DNA of 64,000 nt from the NCBI GenBank assembly GCA_003963305.1, contig RXJR01000012.1:1-64000 (forward strand). Direction: 5' to 3'. Shown one piece after another: positions 6,729-32,668 of this stretch. Source of the DNA: Candidatus Melainabacteria bacterium. Its GTDB lineage: Bacteria > Cyanobacteriota > Vampirovibrionia > Obscuribacterales > Obscuribacteraceae. Position 1 is the first letter of the stretch; every line of letters begins with the position of its first letter. Both the position numbers and the translations under genes were made by a program. Below the pieces are notes generated by a model, which saw only the letters and a program-made list of their open reading frames with translations, had not been told where the DNA came from and searched no databases.

Positions 6729-7607
6729 ATGGCAACTGTTATTGAACTCCCATTAGATACATACAAAGGACCAGTCGATCCAGACTGGTGTCCAGGTTGC
6801 GGCGACTTCGGCGTCTTGCGTTCAGTGCAAACAGCGGCTGGCCGACTCGGCATCAAGCCAGAGAATCTGTTGATTGTCTCTGGTATTGGTTGCTCGTCGA
6901 ACTTGCCCGGTTTCATTCACGCTTACGGCGTACACAGCTTGCACGGTCGCTCTGTGCCTGTAGCAACTGGTGCTCACCTGGCGAACACCGATTTGAAGGT
7001 AGTCATCACTGGTGGTGACGGAGACGGATACGGTATCGGCGTCGGTCACTTGATTCACGCGATGCGCAGAAACCTCGACGTTACTTACGTTGTGATGGAT
7101 AACCAGATCTACGGCTTGACCACTGGTCAGACCTCACCGACAACCGGTATCGGCATGAAGACCAAGTCGACACCGAACGGCAACTTTGAATCACCGTTGA
7201 ACCCGCTCGCTCTAGCCATTACTTCAGGCGCAACATTCGTTGCTCGTGGATTCTCTGGTGAAGCGAAGCAGTTGGCTGAATTGATTCAAGCCGGTATGGC
7301 GCACAGAGGCTTCTCGTTAATCGACGTGTTCAGCCCCTGCGTAACATACAACAAGGTCAACACTTATCCGTTCTTCAAAGAGCGCGTGTATAAGCTGGAA
7401 GACGAGAATTGGGAAACCGGCGATTTCCACAAGTCGCTTGCAAAAGCGTTCGAGTGGGGCGACAGAATTCCTCTGGGCGTCTTCTACAAGAGCGAGCAAC
7501 CAATTTACGAAGACAGCGAACCGGCCTTCAAGAATGGACCGCTCACCAAGCAGTCTCTCGGTTTGGACAAGAAAGTCTTCGATGAATTGATCGAAGAGAT
7601 GATCTAA
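6729..7607 (+). CDS. korB: 2-oxoacid:ferredoxin oxidoreductase, beta subunit (KorB type)
   Basis: Thiamine-pyrophosphate and [4Fe-4S] subunit that pairs with the upstream KorA. The TPP motif GGDGDGYGIG starts at residue 95. Four cysteines at residues 21, 24 (WCPGCG), 55 (GIGCSS) and 204 (SPCVTYNK) match the cluster ligands of this family. The length, 292 residues, is normal. AAGAGGAT lies 7-14 bp before ATG 6729. The operon ends at the strong hairpin terminator at 7658-7687. No pyruvate-type delta ferredoxin subunit is present, so electrons probably go to a separate ferredoxin. Confidence 0.93.
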   Translation: MATVIELPLDTYKGPVDPDWCPGCGDFGVLRSVQTAAGRLGIKPENLLIVSGIGCSSNLPGFIHAYGVHSLHGRSVPVATGAHLANTDLKVVITGGDGDGYGIGVGHLIHAMRRNLDVTYVVMDNQIYGLTTGQTSPTTGIGMKTKSTPNGNFESPLNPLALAITSGATFVARGFSGEAKQLAELIQAGMAHRGFSLIDVFSPCVTYNKVNTYPFFKERVYKLEDENWETGDFHKSLAKAFEWGDRIPLGVFYKSEQPIYEDSEPAFKNGPLTKQSLGLDKKVFDELIEEMI

Positions 7608-7618
7608 TTCCTGGAACG

Positions 7619-7643
7619 CATGGAACGCACTCGTCCCGAGTGC
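7619..7643 (+). repeat. Single diverged copy of the dispersed hairpin repeat
   Basis: This 25-bp stretch matches 22 of 25 positions of the core of the 32-bp array at 31554-31713. It forms the hairpin GCACTCG-TCC-CGAGTGC (7627-7643). Relative to the array, one stem pair is T-A instead of C-G, so both sides changed together. It lies in the 3' untranslated region of korB, just before the terminator. Confidence 0.7.
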
Positions 7644-7657
7644 ATCTAAAAATCACT

Positions 7658-7687
7658 GAAAAGCCCTCGATTATTCGGGGGCTTTTC
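7658..7687 (+). terminator. Rho-independent terminator of korAB
   Basis: Near-perfect hairpin: GAAAAGCCCTCGA pairs with the mirror sequence ending GGGCTTTTC around a TTAT loop. The A-run on the left and T-run on the right allow it to work in both directions. Confidence 0.85.
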
Positions 7688-7817
7688 ACTTCGTGCTCCA
7701 ACAGAATTGTTGAGCGAACATGACTTCGGTGTTCCCCCTTAAGGAACGCAGTGACCGGCTCATGATGTGGCGCAGCGTTGAAGTCGCGATCTAGTCCCGC
7801 TCAGACTGTAGGGACTC

Positions 7818-7872
7818 GTTGTAGTCCTGTTGTAGTCCTGATGTAGTCCCGATGGAGTCCCGATGGAGTCCC
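7818..7872. repeat. 11-bp tandem repeat, five copies
   Basis: Units GTTGTAGTCCT (x2), GATGTAGTCCC and GATGGAGTCCC (x2) run head to tail. The array is flanked by a direct repeat (7793-7811 and 7867-7886, AGTC..CGCTCAGA.TGTAG), and further out by GCGTTGAAGT at 7775-7784 and 7892-7901. The right-hand flank contains the stop codon and last codons of the minus-strand lipoprotein gene, so part of a gene end has been copied. Confidence 0.85.
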
Positions 7873-7875
7873 CGC

Positions 7876-10113
7876 TCAGAATGTAGCGTCTGCGTTGAAG
7901 TTGAGTTGTAACCCCGCCGTCACGGGGCGTGTCGTCAGATTCTTCAATTTCAGCGCATCGAAATTCTTCTTTCCATTTGGAAATAGTTTGACTTTCTTGT
8001 CATTAAATTCGAGGTGCAGTGGTTTGATTTTTTGAATGCTTTTCACGACCGCATTTCGTTCGGCCTTCTCCAGCAGTCCATCATTGACCTGCGACCAATC
8101 GAGATCAATATCATCAGGCAGTGGCAGATCTACCGAAGCGCTGTAGTCTAACTCGCTGTTGCTCAACGAATTGTTGGCGAGAATTTTGTAATTCACTACT
8201 CCCGTGCCTACTAGACGCGCAGAAGCTGACCATGGGCGTTTCTCCCATTTGGCTGGACCCTTTATGACTGAGAGAATTCCGCCTTTTTCGATTGTGCCTT
8301 TGGCGTCGGCATCACCGCTGGCTGTGAATTTCGCTACACCCGGTGAAGTCATCTCGATTTTATCGAGTCTTGGATCATGCAAGGTGATGTCACTGACAAC
8401 GGCGTTCCTGTATCGCCATTTCCGTTCGGCAAGCATTGTTTTATTGACCGGAAAGACCTTGTCGTCTGGCAGGTGTTCTTCGATTTGATCTTTGAGCGCT
8501 GCTGTCGGAATAACCACGCTGCAATTTCTGAGTTGAGCTCTGGAACTGCCGTTCTTAGATTCGACACTGAGCCCATTGACGGTCACGTCAGTTTTGTTTG
8601 ACCCAAAAAGATTCGAGTTGGCAACAGAGAAATTTATTTTGCCGTCGAGATCGACACCTTTGTCTATTTTCAAAATCATGTTGCCAGTTAAATTCGACAG
8701 ACCGAGTTTCATTGCGTTGCTGGAGAGTTTCGCCTGCCCTAGTTTAAGCGTCATTGGCAGAGTGCAAGTGATTCCTTCCTGATCCTTCACAAGGTCCATC
8801 GACATGCCCTTGGTGATGGAAAGTGTTGAGCCGCCAGATGTGTCGAGAGTGAATCCGTGATCGTCACTTCCCCAGCTTATCTGCCTCAGTTTGGCATTGC
8901 CGTTAGCTAGTGAAAGCTGCAAGTCACCGAACTTCGTAATTGATATTGGACCCACCAGTGCATCTGCGAGTTTGACGTTGACGTCCTCAGTCTGGCGGTG
9001 CATCGTGATATCTGCGTTAGCAGCCGGAACAAGATTTGGAGTGTTGAAATTAGTTTCCATCAACCCCTCCTCCTTCCTGTCTATGTCGAGCTTGGCGGGC
9101 ACAGAGCTCGGGAAATTGGCAAGTAAGTTCAACTTCGTATTGAGAATGTGCAAGATTGTCTTTTGCAAGACCATGTCTGACGAAAAGTGGATGGCCGGCT
9201 TGTCTGTACCTTCCGTTTTCTGCCAAACGAAGCGCTTTTCGTTTAACAGCACCACTTCAGCGTGTGCGTTTGATTTCTTTTCTCGTCCGAAACGATAGAT
9301 GCAGTCGGTAAGGCGAATTGGTTTTTGCTGACCTGGCGCCGTTAGCGTCACAACGCCGTTTTGACGTTTGGCGTTGAAGTTTATGAGCATCGACCCGCCG
9401 TTAAAATCCAGGTCGATTTTGGTGCCTCTGTAGGTGTTTTGATCGGCAAAATTTACGTCAACGATGCACTGACCGGTGTAGTTGAAATCAGAGTCGACAA
9501 TCAGGTCTTTAAATGTCAGTCGTGAGTTTTTGCCGATGTGAACGTGTTGCTTGCCGAGCTCCATAGTTGAGTTGGGGCGCATCTCCAACGATGACTTATT
9601 GATTGTCAATTCTGCAAACGCTTTCTTCCAGTCTCCGCCTCCTTCCGCCGCTACATCTTGATGTTCCAGAACATTGAAGATAAATATGCCGATCGTGCGA
9701 ACGATGTCGACGTCACCGGTGACGGTGCCTTTCTTGAGAATCAATTTTTCAGGCGCAGGAATTCCATTTACAGAAATAGGTTGAGATGTGGTTAGTTCAC
9801 CAGTAGCACCTTTGGTGCTGATTATGTTGGGATCATCAATGGGCAGTGTCAGTTTGAGAGTAAAAGTGGTATCAGGGGCGAATTTCATGGTTTTGTCGCG
9901 CACCATGAAAGAACCGCCTTTGAATTTCCCCGATGCTTCCAGATCGAATCGATCGGTTATGGCGGTGATTCGGCGCACAACCGGATCTTCCACTTTTATT
10001 CGAACATCGGCTTTGACAGTTTGTTTTTGAGGTTTGATTTCTGCGCAGCCGTGAACAAGCAGCATGGACGCAATCAGTGTGACAATCTGACGAAATATGT
10101 GGGTGTTATGCAC
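7876..10113 (-). CDS. Large predicted lipoprotein of unknown function, beta-strand rich
   Basis: A 745-residue protein with an N-terminal lipoprotein signal (IVTLIASMLLVHGC; the lipobox cysteine is about residue 23), so it should be lipid-anchored at the cell envelope. The rest alternates short hydrophobic and polar strands with many Asn/Gly turns and Lys/Asp pairs, as in elongated beta-sheet proteins of the AsmA/TamB or LptA-like type. That resemblance is structural guesswork; I recognise no defined domain. The GTG start at 10113 lacks a clear ribosome-binding site. It lies 24 bp downstream of the LCP-family gene on the same strand, so the pair is probably an operon with an envelope-assembly role. 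Confidence 0.75.
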   Translation of the reverse strand: MHNTHIFRQIVTLIASMLLVHGCAEIKPQKQTVKADVRIKVEDPVVRRITAITDRFDLEASGKFKGGSFMVRDKTMKFAPDTTFTLKLTLPIDDPNIISTKGATGELTTSQPISVNGIPAPEKLILKKGTVTGDVDIVRTIGIFIFNVLEHQDVAAEGGGDWKKAFAELTINKSSLEMRPNSTMELGKQHVHIGKNSRLTFKDLIVDSDFNYTGQCIVDVNFADQNTYRGTKIDLDFNGGSMLINFNAKRQNGVVTLTAPGQQKPIRLTDCIYRFGREKKSNAHAEVVLLNEKRFVWQKTEGTDKPAIHFSSDMVLQKTILHILNTKLNLLANFPSSVPAKLDIDRKEEGLMETNFNTPNLVPAANADITMHRQTEDVNVKLADALVGPISITKFGDLQLSLANGNAKLRQISWGSDDHGFTLDTSGGSTLSITKGMSMDLVKDQEGITCTLPMTLKLGQAKLSSNAMKLGLSNLTGNMILKIDKGVDLDGKINFSVANSNLFGSNKTDVTVNGLSVESKNGSSRAQLRNCSVVIPTAALKDQIEEHLPDDKVFPVNKTMLAERKWRYRNAVVSDITLHDPRLDKIEMTSPGVAKFTASGDADAKGTIEKGGILSVIKGPAKWEKRPWSASARLVGTGVVNYKILANNSLSNSELDYSASVDLPLPDDIDLDWSQVNDGLLEKAERNAVVKSIQKIKPLHLEFNDKKVKLFPNGKKNFDALKLKNLTTRPVTAGLQLNFNADATF

Positions 10114-24397: not shown

Positions 24398-26494
24398 ATG
24401 GATGAGGTTCCGACTCCAAATCACTCCGCTCTGTACAATACGTTGCTGTTATTTCGCGACCGAGCGCAGTATGCTCCACACAATCAAATGCCAATAAAAG
24501 AATCTTCTGCCGCTTCGCCAATGAGCAAACAAAAACCCGGAATCAGAACATACTGCCCTGTGCAGTTGGAAGTGCGGGAAGCGCTATCGCTTTTGGGCAC
24601 TGACCGGCTCGTTCTTGCCATACATGACCAGAGTTTTCCCAGTGCTGCTGAGGAAGAGATCGGCAGAGGCTCACCATACACAGAAGGTGGTACCAGGTTT
24701 ATTCACTTCATTCGGTCCCTGGGATTTACAGGTATTCAGTTTGGACCGCAGGGAAAAACTTCGCAAGGAAATCCATCACCTTACGATGGAACACTTTTTT
24801 CTAAGAGCGAATTGTCGATATCTCTCAAAGCCCTTGTTGAAAATCCAGAGTGGTGCGGCTTACTGGACATGGCCACTGTAACTGAAATTGTTGCGGCGTG
24901 CCCAGCTTCAAGTCCACAGAAGAAGGGGGCTTTCGATTACAAGTATGCATGGCATGCACAGCAAGCTGCTTTGCGAAAAGCCTTCAAAAAATTCATGAAC
25001 AGTGAACGCGAAGTGCCGGATCTCTGGAATTCCTTCAATGAGTGGACAGAGGCGCAGCGCGCACTGGGAGAGGATTGGCTTTTCCGCGACGCTATTTTCG
25101 AAGTGTTGACAATTGAGTACGGAACAGATGATTGGCGACGGTGGTCTCTCCTTGATCAGCGGCTGTTCGATCCTGCGCCGGGCGACGAAGCCGCCAGTCA
25201 AGCTCGTCTGAGTGATTTACGTGAGCAGCAAGGTGATGAAATTCGCTTCTATTTTTTCTGCCAGTTTGTCGTTCACACTCAGCATGCGGCGTTGCAGAAG
25301 TTCGCGGCTGACATCGGCTTGCGCTTCTACGGCGATTTGCAGATTGGCTATTCATCGTGCGATACGTGGAGTTGCAGGCACCTTTTCTTGCCCGGCTACT
25401 TGATGGGTGCTCCGCCAAGTCGGACTAACCCTGATGGACAGCCGTGGGGATTCCCTGTTCTGGACCCTCGCAAATATTATGCCGATGGAAAAAGTTCAAA
25501 CTCGAACGATGGAGATGAGCCTCTTGGCCCAGCGCTCTCTCAGTTTAAGAGTCGTATTCAGAAAATGTTGAAAGAGTTTGATGGTATCAGGTTGGATCAT
25601 CCTCACGGGTTGGTTTGCCCGTGGGTTTATAACAGCACTGATTCCAACGCACTACACGCGGTGCAAAACGGGGCGCGTTTGTTTGCATCGCCAGACGTAG
25701 AAGGGCACACTAATCTCGCGAATTTCGCCATCGCACAGAAAGAGCAACTGAATCCAGACAAGGACACTCCCAGGTACGCTGACAACTGGGTGGTTGAGTT
25801 ACGCGATGAACAGGTTGCAAGATTCGCTGTGTTGATTGACCTGGTTATCGATGTAATGTCCCGGCAGGGTTCACCCGCATCTGATGTTGTTTGCGAGGTT
25901 TTGAGCACCTGTCCGTACCCTCTCCGACGAGTAATGGAGCGGCATTCGCTTGGACGGTTTAGAGTCACCCAGAAAGCTAGCTTGACTAATACCGACGACG
26001 GATATCGCAGTGAGAACGCAAAGCCTTCCGATTGGATAATGGTTGGTAATCACGATACGAAGCCAGCCTGGCGTATCGTCAATGACTGGAAAAAATCGGG
26101 TGAGATCGAGGCGAGAGCTAAATACATGGCTGAGCGTCTTGAGCCGGATGCTGAAAAACGCGCCGATTTCGCTGCTGAGTTGATTCGGAATCCAAATCGG
26201 TTGTGCGAGGCAATGTTCGCAGATCTGTTTGCCAGTCCGGCTCGCAATGTTTCGATCTTCTTTCCCGATTTGCTCGGTATGACAGATGTTTATAACGAGC
26301 CAGGCACCATTAGCGATACTAACTGGTCCCTGCGGGTTCCGCATGATTATGAATCTTTGTATCACGAAAGACTCAGCGCAGGCGCAGCGATTTCCATTCC
26401 ACGCGCTCTCATTATGGCGCTTCATGCCAGGTATCCGGAGCCCACTGCCGAGGTGACCGATTTGATTGAAAGGCTCAAAGCGGTACCGGCTTAG
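24398..26494 (+). CDS. malQ: 4-alpha-glucanotransferase (amylomaltase, GH77)
   Basis: Transfers alpha-1,4-glucan chains in maltodextrin and glycogen turnover. GH77 motifs are present in order: GIQFGPQGKTSQGNPSPYDG, IGLRFYGDLQIGYSSCDTW, WGFPVLDP, then DGIRLDHPHGL with the nucleophile aspartate, CEVLSTCP with the acid/base glutamate, and VGNHDTKPAW. The length, 698 residues, is somewhat longer than the usual 500, partly from an N-terminal extension and an insertion around residues 180-260. The start at ATG 24398 has no clear binding site; ATG 24488 is possible. The last 43 bp of the gene, including the stop, are repeated twice downstream. Confidence 0.88.
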   Translation: MDEVPTPNHSALYNTLLLFRDRAQYAPHNQMPIKESSAASPMSKQKPGIRTYCPVQLEVREALSLLGTDRLVLAIHDQSFPSAAEEEIGRGSPYTEGGTRFIHFIRSLGFTGIQFGPQGKTSQGNPSPYDGTLFSKSELSISLKALVENPEWCGLLDMATVTEIVAACPASSPQKKGAFDYKYAWHAQQAALRKAFKKFMNSEREVPDLWNSFNEWTEAQRALGEDWLFRDAIFEVLTIEYGTDDWRRWSLLDQRLFDPAPGDEAASQARLSDLREQQGDEIRFYFFCQFVVHTQHAALQKFAADIGLRFYGDLQIGYSSCDTWSCRHLFLPGYLMGAPPSRTNPDGQPWGFPVLDPRKYYADGKSSNSNDGDEPLGPALSQFKSRIQKMLKEFDGIRLDHPHGLVCPWVYNSTDSNALHAVQNGARLFASPDVEGHTNLANFAIAQKEQLNPDKDTPRYADNWVVELRDEQVARFAVLIDLVIDVMSRQGSPASDVVCEVLSTCPYPLRRVMERHSLGRFRVTQKASLTNTDDGYRSENAKPSDWIMVGNHDTKPAWRIVNDWKKSGEIEARAKYMAERLEPDAEKRADFAAELIRNPNRLCEAMFADLFASPARNVSIFFPDLLGMTDVYNEPGTISDTNWSLRVPHDYESLYHERLSAGAAISIPRALIMALHARYPEPTAEVTDLIERLKAVPA

Positions 26495-26587
26495 ACTTTT
26501 CGATTTGATTGGGTGGCGCTCGATCGGATCGGCTTAGACCTTGTCGATTTGATTGAATGGTTCTCGAGCGCACCGGATTTAGACTAT
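26458..26587 (+). repeat. 43-44 bp tandem repeat, three diverged copies, spanning the malQ stop
   Basis: Copies begin with CGATTTGATTG at 26458, 26501 and 26545, and each ends near (A/G)G(C/A)TTAGAC. The first copy is the coding end of malQ. The other two are non-coding and have diverged. The gene's 3' end was evidently duplicated twice in tandem. Confidence 0.8.
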
Positions 26588-28755: not shown

Positions 28756-29371
28756 ATATTGTCTTTTATCCCCATCTATATTGATTCTTGTTCCCTGATA
28801 TTCGGGGCATTGTAGCAGCACCCTTTCACAGCGGTTTCAGTCCTATAACACGCACTTGCACGCTTAATCTTAAACCTGCAAAAAGCACCGTTTGAGGGAT
28901 AGCATTTCGGAAGATCTTTTGATAGATATAAGTAATGGAAGGTTTCGCATCCTTCCGGTTTAGGTCAATACGTTTGGAGGCATTCCTAGCGACCATCCTA
29001 AGCGAATAAAAAAATACGAATTTCATCAAATAACACCAGCGCATATAAGCTGGATGAACGACGTATTAGGGCAGCTGCACGAACTTGCGGCTGCACTGTC
29101 GTCTTTAATTGTTTGTGTGGTGTTACACTTGTCTGCACCACTGGTGGTGCCCAAATCAATCGGATGTATTAACCCCTTTGCGGCTTTGGCCAAAGCGCAC
29201 GTCATTTTTTTCGCGCGCAGAGATTTCTCGCTATCTAAATTGCCTTGTCTCTATTTTTTCGGTGCTATTCCTGCATAGATTCTTTGCTAATGAAAAGATG
29301 ACTTAGCCCACAAGACGGGTTTTCAGGCTGCTAAAATGTGCCTCTCCCAATCTTTTCAAGGTAGGTCTATT
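28756..29371. other. 616-bp intergenic region, AT-rich, no clear gene
   Basis: The stretch between the divergent aldo/keto reductase and M13 peptidase genes is AT-rich. Short open frames at 28826-29044 (minus) and 29054-29278 (plus) lack ribosome-binding sites and recognisable sequence. It should hold both promoters. I see no palindrome, tRNA or repeat. Confidence 0.5.
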
Positions 29372-31432
29372 TTGCTTCGGATATCGAATTTTCTCAGCCG
29401 CACGGCAATTGCCGGCACTTTGACTGTTATTTCAGCTTTATTGGTTCCGGTCTGCGCCGCTCCGGAAAAGTCGTCCACGATAAATGTCGCCAACATGGAT
29501 AAGAGTGTCGCTCCTTGCAAGGATTTTTTCCGATACGCAAATGGCACCTGGCTGAAAAATACTCCGATCCCAGACGAATATGCCAACTGGGGCGTTTTGA
29601 ACATTATTAACGAGCAGAATCTGAACCGCGTCCATAAGATTCTTGAGGATGCCGCCGCCAAAACCAACCTCGAGCCTGGAAGCGTCGAGAAGAAAATCGG
29701 TGATTTTTGGTACAGCGGCATGGATACCAAAAAAATCGAAGCTGACGGTGCTAAGCCGCTTAAAACTGCGTTTAAACGGATAAATGCCATTGCGAATCTT
29801 GCTGACCTGCAATCGGAGATCGCCCATCTAAACCCCCTGGGCAGCGCCGAGCTCTTCAGGTTTTCAGCCGATCAGGATTATAAAGACAGTTCTCAATATA
29901 TAGGCTCAGCCTGGCAGGGCGGGTTGGGACTGCCTGACCGCGACTACTACACGGGTACAGACGAAGATTCTAAGAAGAAACGTGCCGAGTACGTGGAGCA
30001 CATCGAGAAATTGTTTGAGTTGTTGGGCGACAGTAAGACTGTTGCAGCCGAAAAAGCCAAGAAAGTTATGGCTATAGAGATGACACTCGCTGAAGCCAGC
30101 ATGAAAAACGAAGACACGAGAAAGCCTGAGAACATCTATCACAAGATGACCGTTGCTGAATTCGATAAGTTGACACCGCATTTCTCCTGGACCCGCTACT
30201 TAACGGAAATTGGTCATCCAAATATTCAGTACATTACCGTCGGGCAGCCTGAATTTTTCAAAGTCCTGGATAGTCAGTTGGAAAAGGTTCCGCTGCAGGA
30301 TTGGAAAGATTATTTGACTTTTCATTTGATAGATGACGCTGCACCATATCTGTCATCTCAGTTCGAAAATGAAGATTTCCATTTCCATGGGCATCTTTTA
30401 GAAGGCAAAAAGGTGATCATGCCCCGTTGGAAGCGCGTCGTCGAGGCGACCAACAGTGCGCTCGGTGAGGCGGTGGGCGAAGTTTATGTCCGCACAGCAT
30501 TTCCTCCTGAGTCTAAAAAGAAGGCACTGGAACTCGTGAATCAATTGCGTGATGTGCTTAAGAACGATTTGACGAGCCTGGAGTGGATGAGCCCTGAGAC
30601 TCGCAAAAATGCACTCGTCAAAATCGATGCTTTTGCTGAGAAAATTGGCTACCCTGATAAATGGCGTGATTATTCTAAGTTACACATCAGTCGTGATGGT
30701 AGTTATCTGGGTAACGTAACCCGCGCGAACGAGTTTGAGTTTAATCGTCAGTTGAGTAAAATCGGTAAACCAATCGACCGAACCGAATGGTTTATGAACG
30801 CGCATACGGTGAACGCCTACTACAGTCCGGAAATGAACGAGATTGTCTTTCCTGCTGGTATTTTGCAGCCGCCCGTTTTTGACGTCAAAGCCGACGATGC
30901 CACTAATCTTGGTGGCATGGGAATGGTTATCGGCCACGAAATGACTCATGGTTTCGACGATCAAGGCAGCAAATTCGACGCCAAAGGAAATCTCCATAAC
31001 TGGTGGACAGATGAGGATATGAAGCAATTCGAGAGTCGTGTCGATCTGATTCGCAATCAGTATGATGGCTATGTCGTTGCCGGCGATACTCATCTAAAAG
31101 GAAAGCTCGTTTCTGGTGAAGCTGCAGCGGATCTTGGCGGTATGACTATCGCTTACAAGACGCTGGAGAAGATCTTGGGCGATAAACCGCGCGAGAAAGA
31201 CGCAAATGGATTTACACCTGAGCAGAGATTCTTTCTTGCTTTTGCGCAATGCTGGGCGACAAATTATCGTCCGGAGCGTGAGCGCCTGATTGCGAAAACG
31301 AATCCACATCCAACCGCGGAATACCGAGTCAACGGCACGCTTGCGAACATGGATGCATTTGAGAAGGCTTTCCCCTGCGATGGAAAAGATTCGATGATGC
31401 TGCCGCCTGAGAAGCGCTGCAGATTGTGGTGA
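29372..31432 (+). CDS. Secreted M13 family zinc metallopeptidase (neprilysin/PepO-like)
   Basis: Oligopeptidase of about 686 residues, the normal M13 length. The start is probably TTG 29372 with AAGGTAGG upstream; ATG 29336 would add 12 residues. A signal peptide (TAIAGTLTVISALLVPVCAA) exports it. The catalytic region shows NAYYSPEMNEIVFPAGIL, GHEMTHGFDD (H522, E523, H526) and the third zinc ligand E583 in SGEAAADLGGM. The C-terminus EKRCRLW follows the usual ending close to C-x-W. The length and motifs are intact, so it should be active in the periplasm or outside. Confidence 0.93.
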   Translation: MLRISNFLSRTAIAGTLTVISALLVPVCAAPEKSSTINVANMDKSVAPCKDFFRYANGTWLKNTPIPDEYANWGVLNIINEQNLNRVHKILEDAAAKTNLEPGSVEKKIGDFWYSGMDTKKIEADGAKPLKTAFKRINAIANLADLQSEIAHLNPLGSAELFRFSADQDYKDSSQYIGSAWQGGLGLPDRDYYTGTDEDSKKKRAEYVEHIEKLFELLGDSKTVAAEKAKKVMAIEMTLAEASMKNEDTRKPENIYHKMTVAEFDKLTPHFSWTRYLTEIGHPNIQYITVGQPEFFKVLDSQLEKVPLQDWKDYLTFHLIDDAAPYLSSQFENEDFHFHGHLLEGKKVIMPRWKRVVEATNSALGEAVGEVYVRTAFPPESKKKALELVNQLRDVLKNDLTSLEWMSPETRKNALVKIDAFAEKIGYPDKWRDYSKLHISRDGSYLGNVTRANEFEFNRQLSKIGKPIDRTEWFMNAHTVNAYYSPEMNEIVFPAGILQPPVFDVKADDATNLGGMGMVIGHEMTHGFDDQGSKFDAKGNLHNWWTDEDMKQFESRVDLIRNQYDGYVVAGDTHLKGKLVSGEAAADLGGMTIAYKTLEKILGDKPREKDANGFTPEQRFFLAFAQCWATNYRPERERLIAKTNPHPTAEYRVNGTLANMDAFEKAFPCDGKDSMMLPPEKRCRLW

Positions 31433-31553
31433 TCTGAACGGTAATTATTGGAACTTTCAATCAGAATTCGGTGTCCTGTTTCTACGCCGAGTTCTGATTT
31501 GAATTTGAATTGGAATTTTGAATCGACTCGGAAATATAGATTGATAAGGTGCA

Positions 31554-31713
31554 GTGTGTCATGGAGCGCGCCCGTCCCGGGTGCCGTGTGTCATGGAGCG
31601 CGCCCGTCCCGGGTGCCGTGTGTCATGGAGCGCACCCGTCCCGGGTGCCGTGTGTCATGGAGCGCGCCCGTCCCGGGTGCCGTGTGTCATGGAGCGCACC
31701 CGTCCCGGGTGCC
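31554..31713. repeat. 32-bp tandem repeat, five copies, each with a hairpin
   Basis: Five head-to-tail units (31554, 31586, 31618, 31650, 31682) are identical except for one A/G position. Each contains GC(A/G)CCCG-TCC-CGGGTGC, a 7-bp stem with a 3-base loop. The A/G variation keeps pairing (A-T or G-T). There are no spacers. The array is 120 bp past the M13 peptidase stop. A diverged copy lies at 7619-7643. Confidence 0.95.
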
Positions 31714-31790
31714 GTTGCTTAACAGCATCAATATTGGTCAACTCAATCCAAGTTAGAGACTGACGATAGTCGGAACTCAGGGAGAAAATT

Positions 31791-32389: not shown

Positions 32390-32520
32390 TGGTAATTCCT
32401 TTAAAAATCAAATGCCGCGTGCGAGGGTCCGAACGGCTAGCGGCAGTTCTCGAAGGGGATGGGGTTGTTCGGGATGTTTTAAATATAGACGGCATTTGTG
32501 ACTTAATTGTCACCCGGGCG

Positions 32521-32580
32521 TTTAACCTTGCGCAGCCTGGTTTAACCTTTCGCGACCTGGTCTAAACTTGCGCAGCCTGG
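32521..32580. repeat. 20-bp tandem repeat, three copies
   Basis: Units TTTAACCTTGCGCAGCCTGG, TTTAACCTTTCGCGACCTGG and TCTAAACTTGCGCAGCCTGG run head to tail. They lie about 90 bp past the stop of the minus-strand papain-like gene. The rest of 32390-32668 holds no gene that I can see. Confidence 0.85.
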
Positions 32581-32668
32581 TCATGGTCCAAGCCGTTCTT
32601 GGGCGTATTCGCGCCGCTGCATCAGGTCTGTAGTCTTCTCTGGCTGGTTCGGTTGGCCAGGAGCAGTG

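Follow-up and report, generated by a model that had tools for sequence, protein, structure and literature searches.

What kind of element stands as a tandem array of hairpins behind one gene of a Candidatus Melainabacteria bacterium, recurs as a single hairpin behind another, and has exchanged a base pair in its stem between the two sites while still being able to fold? The DNA considered here, referred to as the window, is a stretch of 64,000 nucleotides (positions 1 to 64,000 of contig C12) from a genome of 7.48 Mb. An initial annotation of the window had described five 32-bp units, each possessing a 7-bp stem and a TCC loop, and both inspection of the sequence and TRF analysis confirmed this description (positions 31548 to 31715; period 32, 5.2 copies, 97% match). 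The neighboring genes are likewise those that had been named, a korB-like gene ending at position 7607 and an M13 peptidase gene ending at position 31432. The features of the two sites are as follows:

31548 to 31715, forward strand: tandem array of five units of a repetitive extragenic palindrome (REP) with a 32-bp period, composed of a 23-bp REP core and a locus-specific 9-bp spacer, CGTGTGTCA (TRF, spacer comparison)
31562 to 31584, forward strand: REP core 1, foot TGGAGC, stem GCGCCCG/CGGGTGC (one G·T), loop TCC
31594 to 31616, forward strand: REP core 2, stem GCGCCCG/CGGGTGC
31626 to 31648, forward strand: REP core 3, stem GCACCCG/CGGGTGC
31658 to 31680, forward strand: REP core 4, stem GCGCCCG/CGGGTGC
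31690 to 31712, forward strand: REP core 5, stem GCACCCG/CGGGTGC
29336 to 31432, forward strand: M13 family peptidase gene upstream of the array (context only)
7621 to 7643, forward strand: single REP core, foot TGGAAC, stem GCACTCG/CGAGTGC, loop TCC, 13 bp past the stop codon of the korB-like gene
7612 to 7620, forward strand: partial duplicate of the REP foot, TGGAACGCA, directly 5' of the single copy (from the sequence)
6729 to 7607, forward strand: gene for a 2-oxoacid:ferredoxin oxidoreductase beta subunit (korB-like; TPP_enzyme_C, PFO_beta_C) upstream of the single copy (context only)
7658 to 7688, forward strand: separate GC-rich hairpin with A/T flanks, AAAAGCCCTCGATTATTCGGGGGCTTTTC, outside the REP (spotted by eye)

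The window contains six exact matches to the core and one match with three mismatches, compared with 0.25 expected from dinucleotide shuffles. All stems of the array conform to GC(A/G)CCCG(TCC)CGGGTGC, with the G form, which creates a G·T wobble, present in three of the five units. As had been claimed, the single copy is identical to CATGGAGCGCACCCGTCCCGGGTGC at 22 of 25 positions, and a paired exchange of C-G for T-A accounts for two of its three differences. The A/G variant of the array had also been taken to preserve the structure; it does still pair, as a G·T wobble, but it is not compensatory, since only one side of the stem has changed. Because G·T and A·C mismatches are about equally common across the copies, this wobble provides no evidence for maintenance of the structure at the level of RNA. 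We looked for a T-run after the hairpins and found none, and their identification as terminators was therefore rejected. Judged by its sequence, the separate hairpin at 7658 to 7688 appears to be a likelier terminator of the korB-like gene than the REP; a terminator consensus scan did not flag it.

Other tandem repeats are present in the window. A degenerate 11-bp repeat (TGTAGTCCCGA; 7812 to 7880) separates the single REP from the gene that follows it and has only one or two related sites in a 2.05-Mb sample of the genome. An 18-bp repeat (AACCACTGCACGATGCTC; 1 to 114, 6.3 copies) occupies the very start of both the window and the contig, and two further tandem repeats, with units of 20 bp (32520 to 32581) and 44 bp (26458 to 26585), are found near gene ends.

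The hairpins of the window have numerous counterparts in the remainder of the genome. The pattern TGGARCGC-NNN-CGTCYCG-NNN-GC has 131 exact copies (62 forward, 69 reverse), while a reversed-pattern control had none, and a narrower pattern that tolerated up to three mismatches gave 171 matches; overall, we estimate the copy number at about 170–200. The consensus for the genome reads CATGGARCGC-NNN-CGTCYCG-NNN-GC, with CATGGARC as the foot, and a single foot-plus-loop consensus spans every stem type that we encountered. At the fourth base of the foot, G was found 68 times, A 18 times, C four times, and T three times. The context of the copies was surveyed in 2.05 Mb of chosen, hit-rich contigs, so that the 97 copies in 38 loci counted there (one to eight per locus) do not represent a genome-wide density. 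Among 59 pairs of neighboring copies in this sample, 56 were direct and only three inverted, an arrangement other than the doublets of two inverted REPs with a short spacer that characterize REPINs as moving units. Strict inverted doublets of a REPIN-like type, with plus and minus copies about 107–113 bp apart, are present in two other genomes (Acidobacteria SZAS-13, G102, and G110). Neighbors within arrays shared their stem type in 53 of the 59 pairs, and the spacers were much more alike within arrays (0.91) than between them (0.46), which indicates that the arrays grew in place through tandem duplication of the repeat together with its local flank.

Each copy is a short GC-rich palindrome, the strand of which folds into a hairpin with a 7-bp stem and a 3-nt loop. 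Three pairs in the center of the stem are free to vary, and in 59 of 66 exact-core copies from the 2.05-Mb sample all three are Watson-Crick pairs (65 of 66 if G·T is allowed), even though the stem triplets include ACC, ACG, AGC, AGT, CCG, ACT, GCC, and GTC. For an alignment of 36 distinct sequences from six genomes that carry the family, 97.2% of the cells were paired (78.5% in shuffles), double changes occupied 45 cells (13.9 in shuffles), and the covariation score was 0.464, compared with 0.105 in shuffles and at most 0.127 in slid controls. Variation in this alignment is confined to the three central pairs, and the constancy of its core positions reflects the selection of the hits, since the search pattern had fixed them; a near-constant core was also seen in mismatch-tolerant and foot-only scans. 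Mismatched copies were of the G·T and A·C kinds in five and two loci of this genome, respectively, and numbered seven and eight in other genomes. These data demonstrate that the sequence of the stem changes freely while its two sides stay matched, in agreement with the earlier proposal that the structure is preserved; further copies do not break it as often as they keep it.

An enzyme that could account for such repeats is encoded by the same genome. PF01797 has one match above its cut-off, and this is the only Y1 transposase gene that we detected. Its product, a REP-associated tyrosine transposase (RAYT) of 206 amino acids encoded on contig C24, possesses the motifs NHVH, WQ, and YIENNP, scores 92.2 bits against NF047646 (REP_Tyr_transpos; cut-off 80), and aligns with the E. 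coli TnpAREP structure 4er8 (E = 1e-10). Several copies of the repeat follow the gene on one strand and others precede it on the opposite strand, so that the gene is flanked by inverted copies, all of them of the ACG stem type. With one Y1 gene in place of many near-identical transposase copies, an identity as an IS200/IS605 element was rejected.

Among 99 relatives, the repeat is patchily distributed and present in six; of two further species in the genus, one has no copies. In the sister species, we detected neither copies of the repeat nor a RAYT, and the region 3' of its korB-like gene lacks the repeat; because intergenic DNA has diverged too far to be aligned, this comparison yields presence or absence and not a clean empty site. 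RAYTs with 42–55% identity to that of the window's genome are encoded by four relatives (G022, G024, G028, and G045), and GGAGC-foot hairpins stand inverted on both sides of the gene in each of these genomes, as they do in the genome under study. Foot and 7-bp stem length are kept in these adjoining hairpins, and the stems are genome-specific (GGA/TCC, CGG/CCG, and GGG/CCC). A fifth relative (G002) contains a broken RAYT; GGAGC-foot hairpins with a 7-bp stem precede this gene, and one more hairpin, inverted, stands where the contig ends. Weaker RAYT homologues of the relatives (below 45 bits) had no GGAGC-foot hairpins; GTRG feet, or none, were found next to them. The second RAYT of G024 (L279; 1425 to 2188) is accompanied by long hairpins with stems of 10 and 19 bp and by a one-sided GTAG-like foot, a sequence context that makes a second guide switch possible. 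About 120 copies with a GGGAGC foot are present in the fragmented assembly of G016, where the only RAYT found has GTAG-type flanks; a RAYT of the GGANC type, which was not detected there, may have been lost or may fall into a gap of the assembly.

To look beyond these relatives, we scanned 84,980 species genomes for the exact core. Among the matches listed, of which there were at least 143, the free positions were fully complementary in 106 of 143, compared with about 1 in 64 by chance. Twenty genomes with such complementary matches were found to hold 2–222 copies each (reversed control: 0), and RAYT homologues were present in 18 of these 20 repeat-selected genomes, some of which carry several. 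RAYTs with GGARC hairpins on their flanks were seen in members of Acidobacteria, Verrucomicrobiales, Lentisphaerae, and magnetospirilla (Alphaproteobacteria); the branch is present in at least four phyla. Since these genomes had been picked by the repeat itself, we added 199 Acidobacteriota genomes drawn by taxonomy; in this set, GGANC hairpins stood on both sides, inverted, at 17 of 30 RAYT loci, whereas both-side GTRG hairpins and two control pentamers were each found at none of the 30. The fourth base of the foot varies (GGAGC, GGAAC, GGACC, GGATC), and one RAYT (L357) has a GGG stem on one flank and a GGA stem on the other.

In the same Acidobacteriota sample, several RAYT genes and their REPs were found in frame within long host reading frames (L301, L343, L344, L339, L342, and L360). 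At L301 (451 to 3327, reverse strand), the RAYT resides within an AMP-binding protein (acyl/acetyl-CoA synthetase) whose domains are present on both sides of it in one frame of 958 amino acids. It lies inside DUF1156/D12-type adenine methylases at L339 and at L343/L344, in positions that differ between them, and inside other DNA methylase-like proteins, judged by eye, at L342 and L360. About 11 of 53 RAYT matches in this set fall in open frames longer than 900 amino acids.

Because the sole detected Y1 transposase of the genome is a RAYT with inverted copies of the repeat on both sides, and because this arrangement recurs in relatives and in other phyla, we conclude that the hairpins of the window belong to an extensive family of small REPs that is part of a RAYT system. 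The REP-like character that the initial annotation had suggested is thereby borne out by copy number, covariation, location, and the RAYT gene between inverted copies.

The type of foot follows the phylogeny of the enzyme. A maximum-likelihood tree was built from 44 RAYTs, and in it a single change parts the 15 that were labeled GGARC from the 12 that were labeled GTRG, including loci with a hairpin scored on one side only, when L279 is left unlabeled (support 97/94; 98% of bootstrap trees; 0 of 500 shuffles). If L279, which lies inside the GGANC clade, is counted as a different type, two changes are needed; both-side GTRG hairpins were not found at any RAYT of this clade. At the positions that correspond to E100-H101 of E. 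coli TnpAREP, a region with residues that contact the guide (PMC6006769), all 18 clade members have D-R, which occurs in two of 12 GTRG-flanked RAYTs (L297 and L306), the others having mostly E-H or D-H. Since D, and sometimes R, is known at these positions in GTAG subclasses 2.5 and 2.7 (PMC6006769), and since L297 and L306 share the pair, D-R is a lead and not a proof for the reading of the foot. The near-perfect agreement between foot and clade offers natural pairs for learning how the enzyme reads its guide.

We consider it very probable that the elements are REPs of a RAYT/REP system that are recognized as a folded single strand and moved by the RAYT, with arrays arising through tandem duplication and the central stem drifting in pairs. 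The recognition site would consist of the 5-nt foot GGANC directly 5' of the 7-bp stem and a loop of 3–4 nt, usually TCY; the outer G-C and C-G pairs of the stem would be fixed and the inner C-G and G-C pairs mostly so, with the three free pairs between them. The RAYT, an HUH-type Y1 nuclease, would bind the folded strand through the foot, the loop, and the ends of the stem, cut beside the hairpin, and bring the element or a copy of it into intergenic DNA, where arrays such as that at 31548 to 31715 would then enlarge in place as REP and local spacer are duplicated in tandem. TnpAREP holds its single-stranded substrate in folded form, through the foot and through irregularities of the loop or stem, and cleaves it close by (PMC8266576, PMC6006769). 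A constant foot, constant stem ends and loop, and a freely varying but paired center are what recognition of this kind would leave, and by this analogy the repeat is probably carried between sites by its matching single-strand DNA cutting enzyme. We further propose, as an idea that falls just short of an even chance, that one branch of RAYTs, spread across phyla, has come to use GGANC in place of GTRG as its single-strand guide, with D-R as the candidate determinant, and that this branch reads the central stem for its pairing and not for its sequence. The central stem could then drift by paired changes, and one enzyme could maintain the many stem types that stand beside it in a genome.

The paired changes could also be the work of mutation in a RAYT-borne REP and not of selection for recognition, through template switching at quasi-palindromes or gene conversion between arms or copies. 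Quasi-palindrome correction is an established process. Under this explanation, both arms would be expected to change together with few intermediates, as they do, G·T and A·C intermediates would be about equally frequent, as a DNA process would give, and the sharing of stem types within arrays would follow. We regard it as a sizeable possibility that is nonetheless less likely than not, since the outer pairs, the foot, and mostly the loop are fixed over several phyla while the center varies, which argues for a recognition constraint at least there. Of comparable standing is the possibility that each stem type was spread by a RAYT of its own, all but one of which have been lost, so that the surviving enzyme is stem-specific. 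That the surviving gene adjoins only ACG-type copies, that a sister genome retains a degraded RAYT with another stem type, and that other genomes possess several RAYTs are all consistent with such a history. Against it stand the foot-plus-loop consensus common to all stem types of the genome and the differing stems on the two flanks of the RAYT at L357. Since a single RAYT is present here together with six or more stem types, this genome permits a direct test of what a RAYT recognizes.

The placement of the copies bears on two explanations that do not involve a RAYT. With genes called by a simple codon-usage script, overlap with coding sequences was strongly depleted (two of 35 loci called in a CDS; p = 5e-17 for intergenic placement). 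Convergent intergenic regions harbored 14 of 33 loci (18% expected; p about 0.001), and the nearest gene end was a stop codon in 24 of 33 intergenic loci (45% expected; p about 0.001), in line with the location near the 3' ends of genes that had been noted for the two sites of the window. The enrichment in convergent regions, and the fact that enterobacterial REPs bind host proteins (PMC6006769), would fit a site of host function near gene ends, such as binding of nucleoid proteins, gyrase, or integration host factor, or the control of supercoiling; we hold this to be very unlikely, because a core host function is expected to be conserved and the repeat is patchy even within its genus. An RNA element that stabilizes or attenuates transcript 3' ends, its stem kept by selection on the RNA, would suit the proximity to stop codons and the ability of the strand to fold, and had been suggested previously, but this role is not supported and highly improbable: the two orientations of the repeat to its nearest gene do not differ significantly in number over the 33 intergenic loci (20:13, p = 0.30), G·U-compatible mismatches are no commoner than A·C, a T-run is lacking, the window has no match in Rfam, and the RAYT flanks and the clade linkage would be left unexplained.

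How does the RAYT-borne family relate to systems that have been described before? In the literature, REPs are defined by the tag GT(A/G)G (PMC3733652, PMC3686654, PMC6006769), and because surveys searched for this tag, a GGANC branch would be missed by them. Measured against the strict definition, the elements are palindromic, intergenic, and present in high copy number, and have GGANC in the place of the GTRG foot; their enzyme possesses the HUH motif and the catalytic tyrosine, scores above the cut-off of its family, and is flanked by inverted copies, as is characteristic of a RAYT/REPtron. In the main texts of openly available papers, we found no REP with a GGANC or GGAGC foot that goes with a single RAYT clade; an earlier description elsewhere is possible. 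Departures from the usual form are on record for class 3, in the foot (CnGA), and for subclass 2.6, in the structure.

Like the GTAG-tagged REPs of E. coli, Pseudomonas, and Stenotrophomonas, the family has a conserved 5' foot that is followed by a short palindrome, high copy number, intergenic location, inverted copies around the RAYT, and stem types with complementary changes (PMC3733652); it differs from them in its foot, in the wide variation of stems in one genome with one RAYT, and in its mostly direct arrays. Some REPs of P. fluorescens read GTAGGAGC (PMC3686654), so the GGAGC foot may have descended from a longer head of this kind. The RAYT carries the NHVH, WQ, and YIxNNP signature of TnpAREP subclass 2.4 (Bertels group 4), which is known from Cyanobacteria and various phyla; however, the REPs of that subclass, for which GT(A/G)G served as the search tag, are either long or equipped with two feet (PMC6006769), while those described here are short and have a GGANC foot. 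TnpAY1 class 3 occurs in overlapping phyla (Planctomycetes, Acidobacteria, and Proteobacteria) and has atypical high-copy REPs in Solibacter (about 600), but its CnGA foot and Y....Q motif are absent here, so that membership was rejected, and its W[TA] contrasts with the WQ and YIENNP motifs of our enzyme. Acidobacteria such as K. versatilis also possess TIRYT genes, which are likewise Y1 transposases with flanking repeats other than GTAG (PMC3733652); the repeats in question are terminal, inverted, and long, and GGGGWSAS motifs occur in some of them, whereas the RAYTs of the branch described here are framed by short GGANC hairpins.
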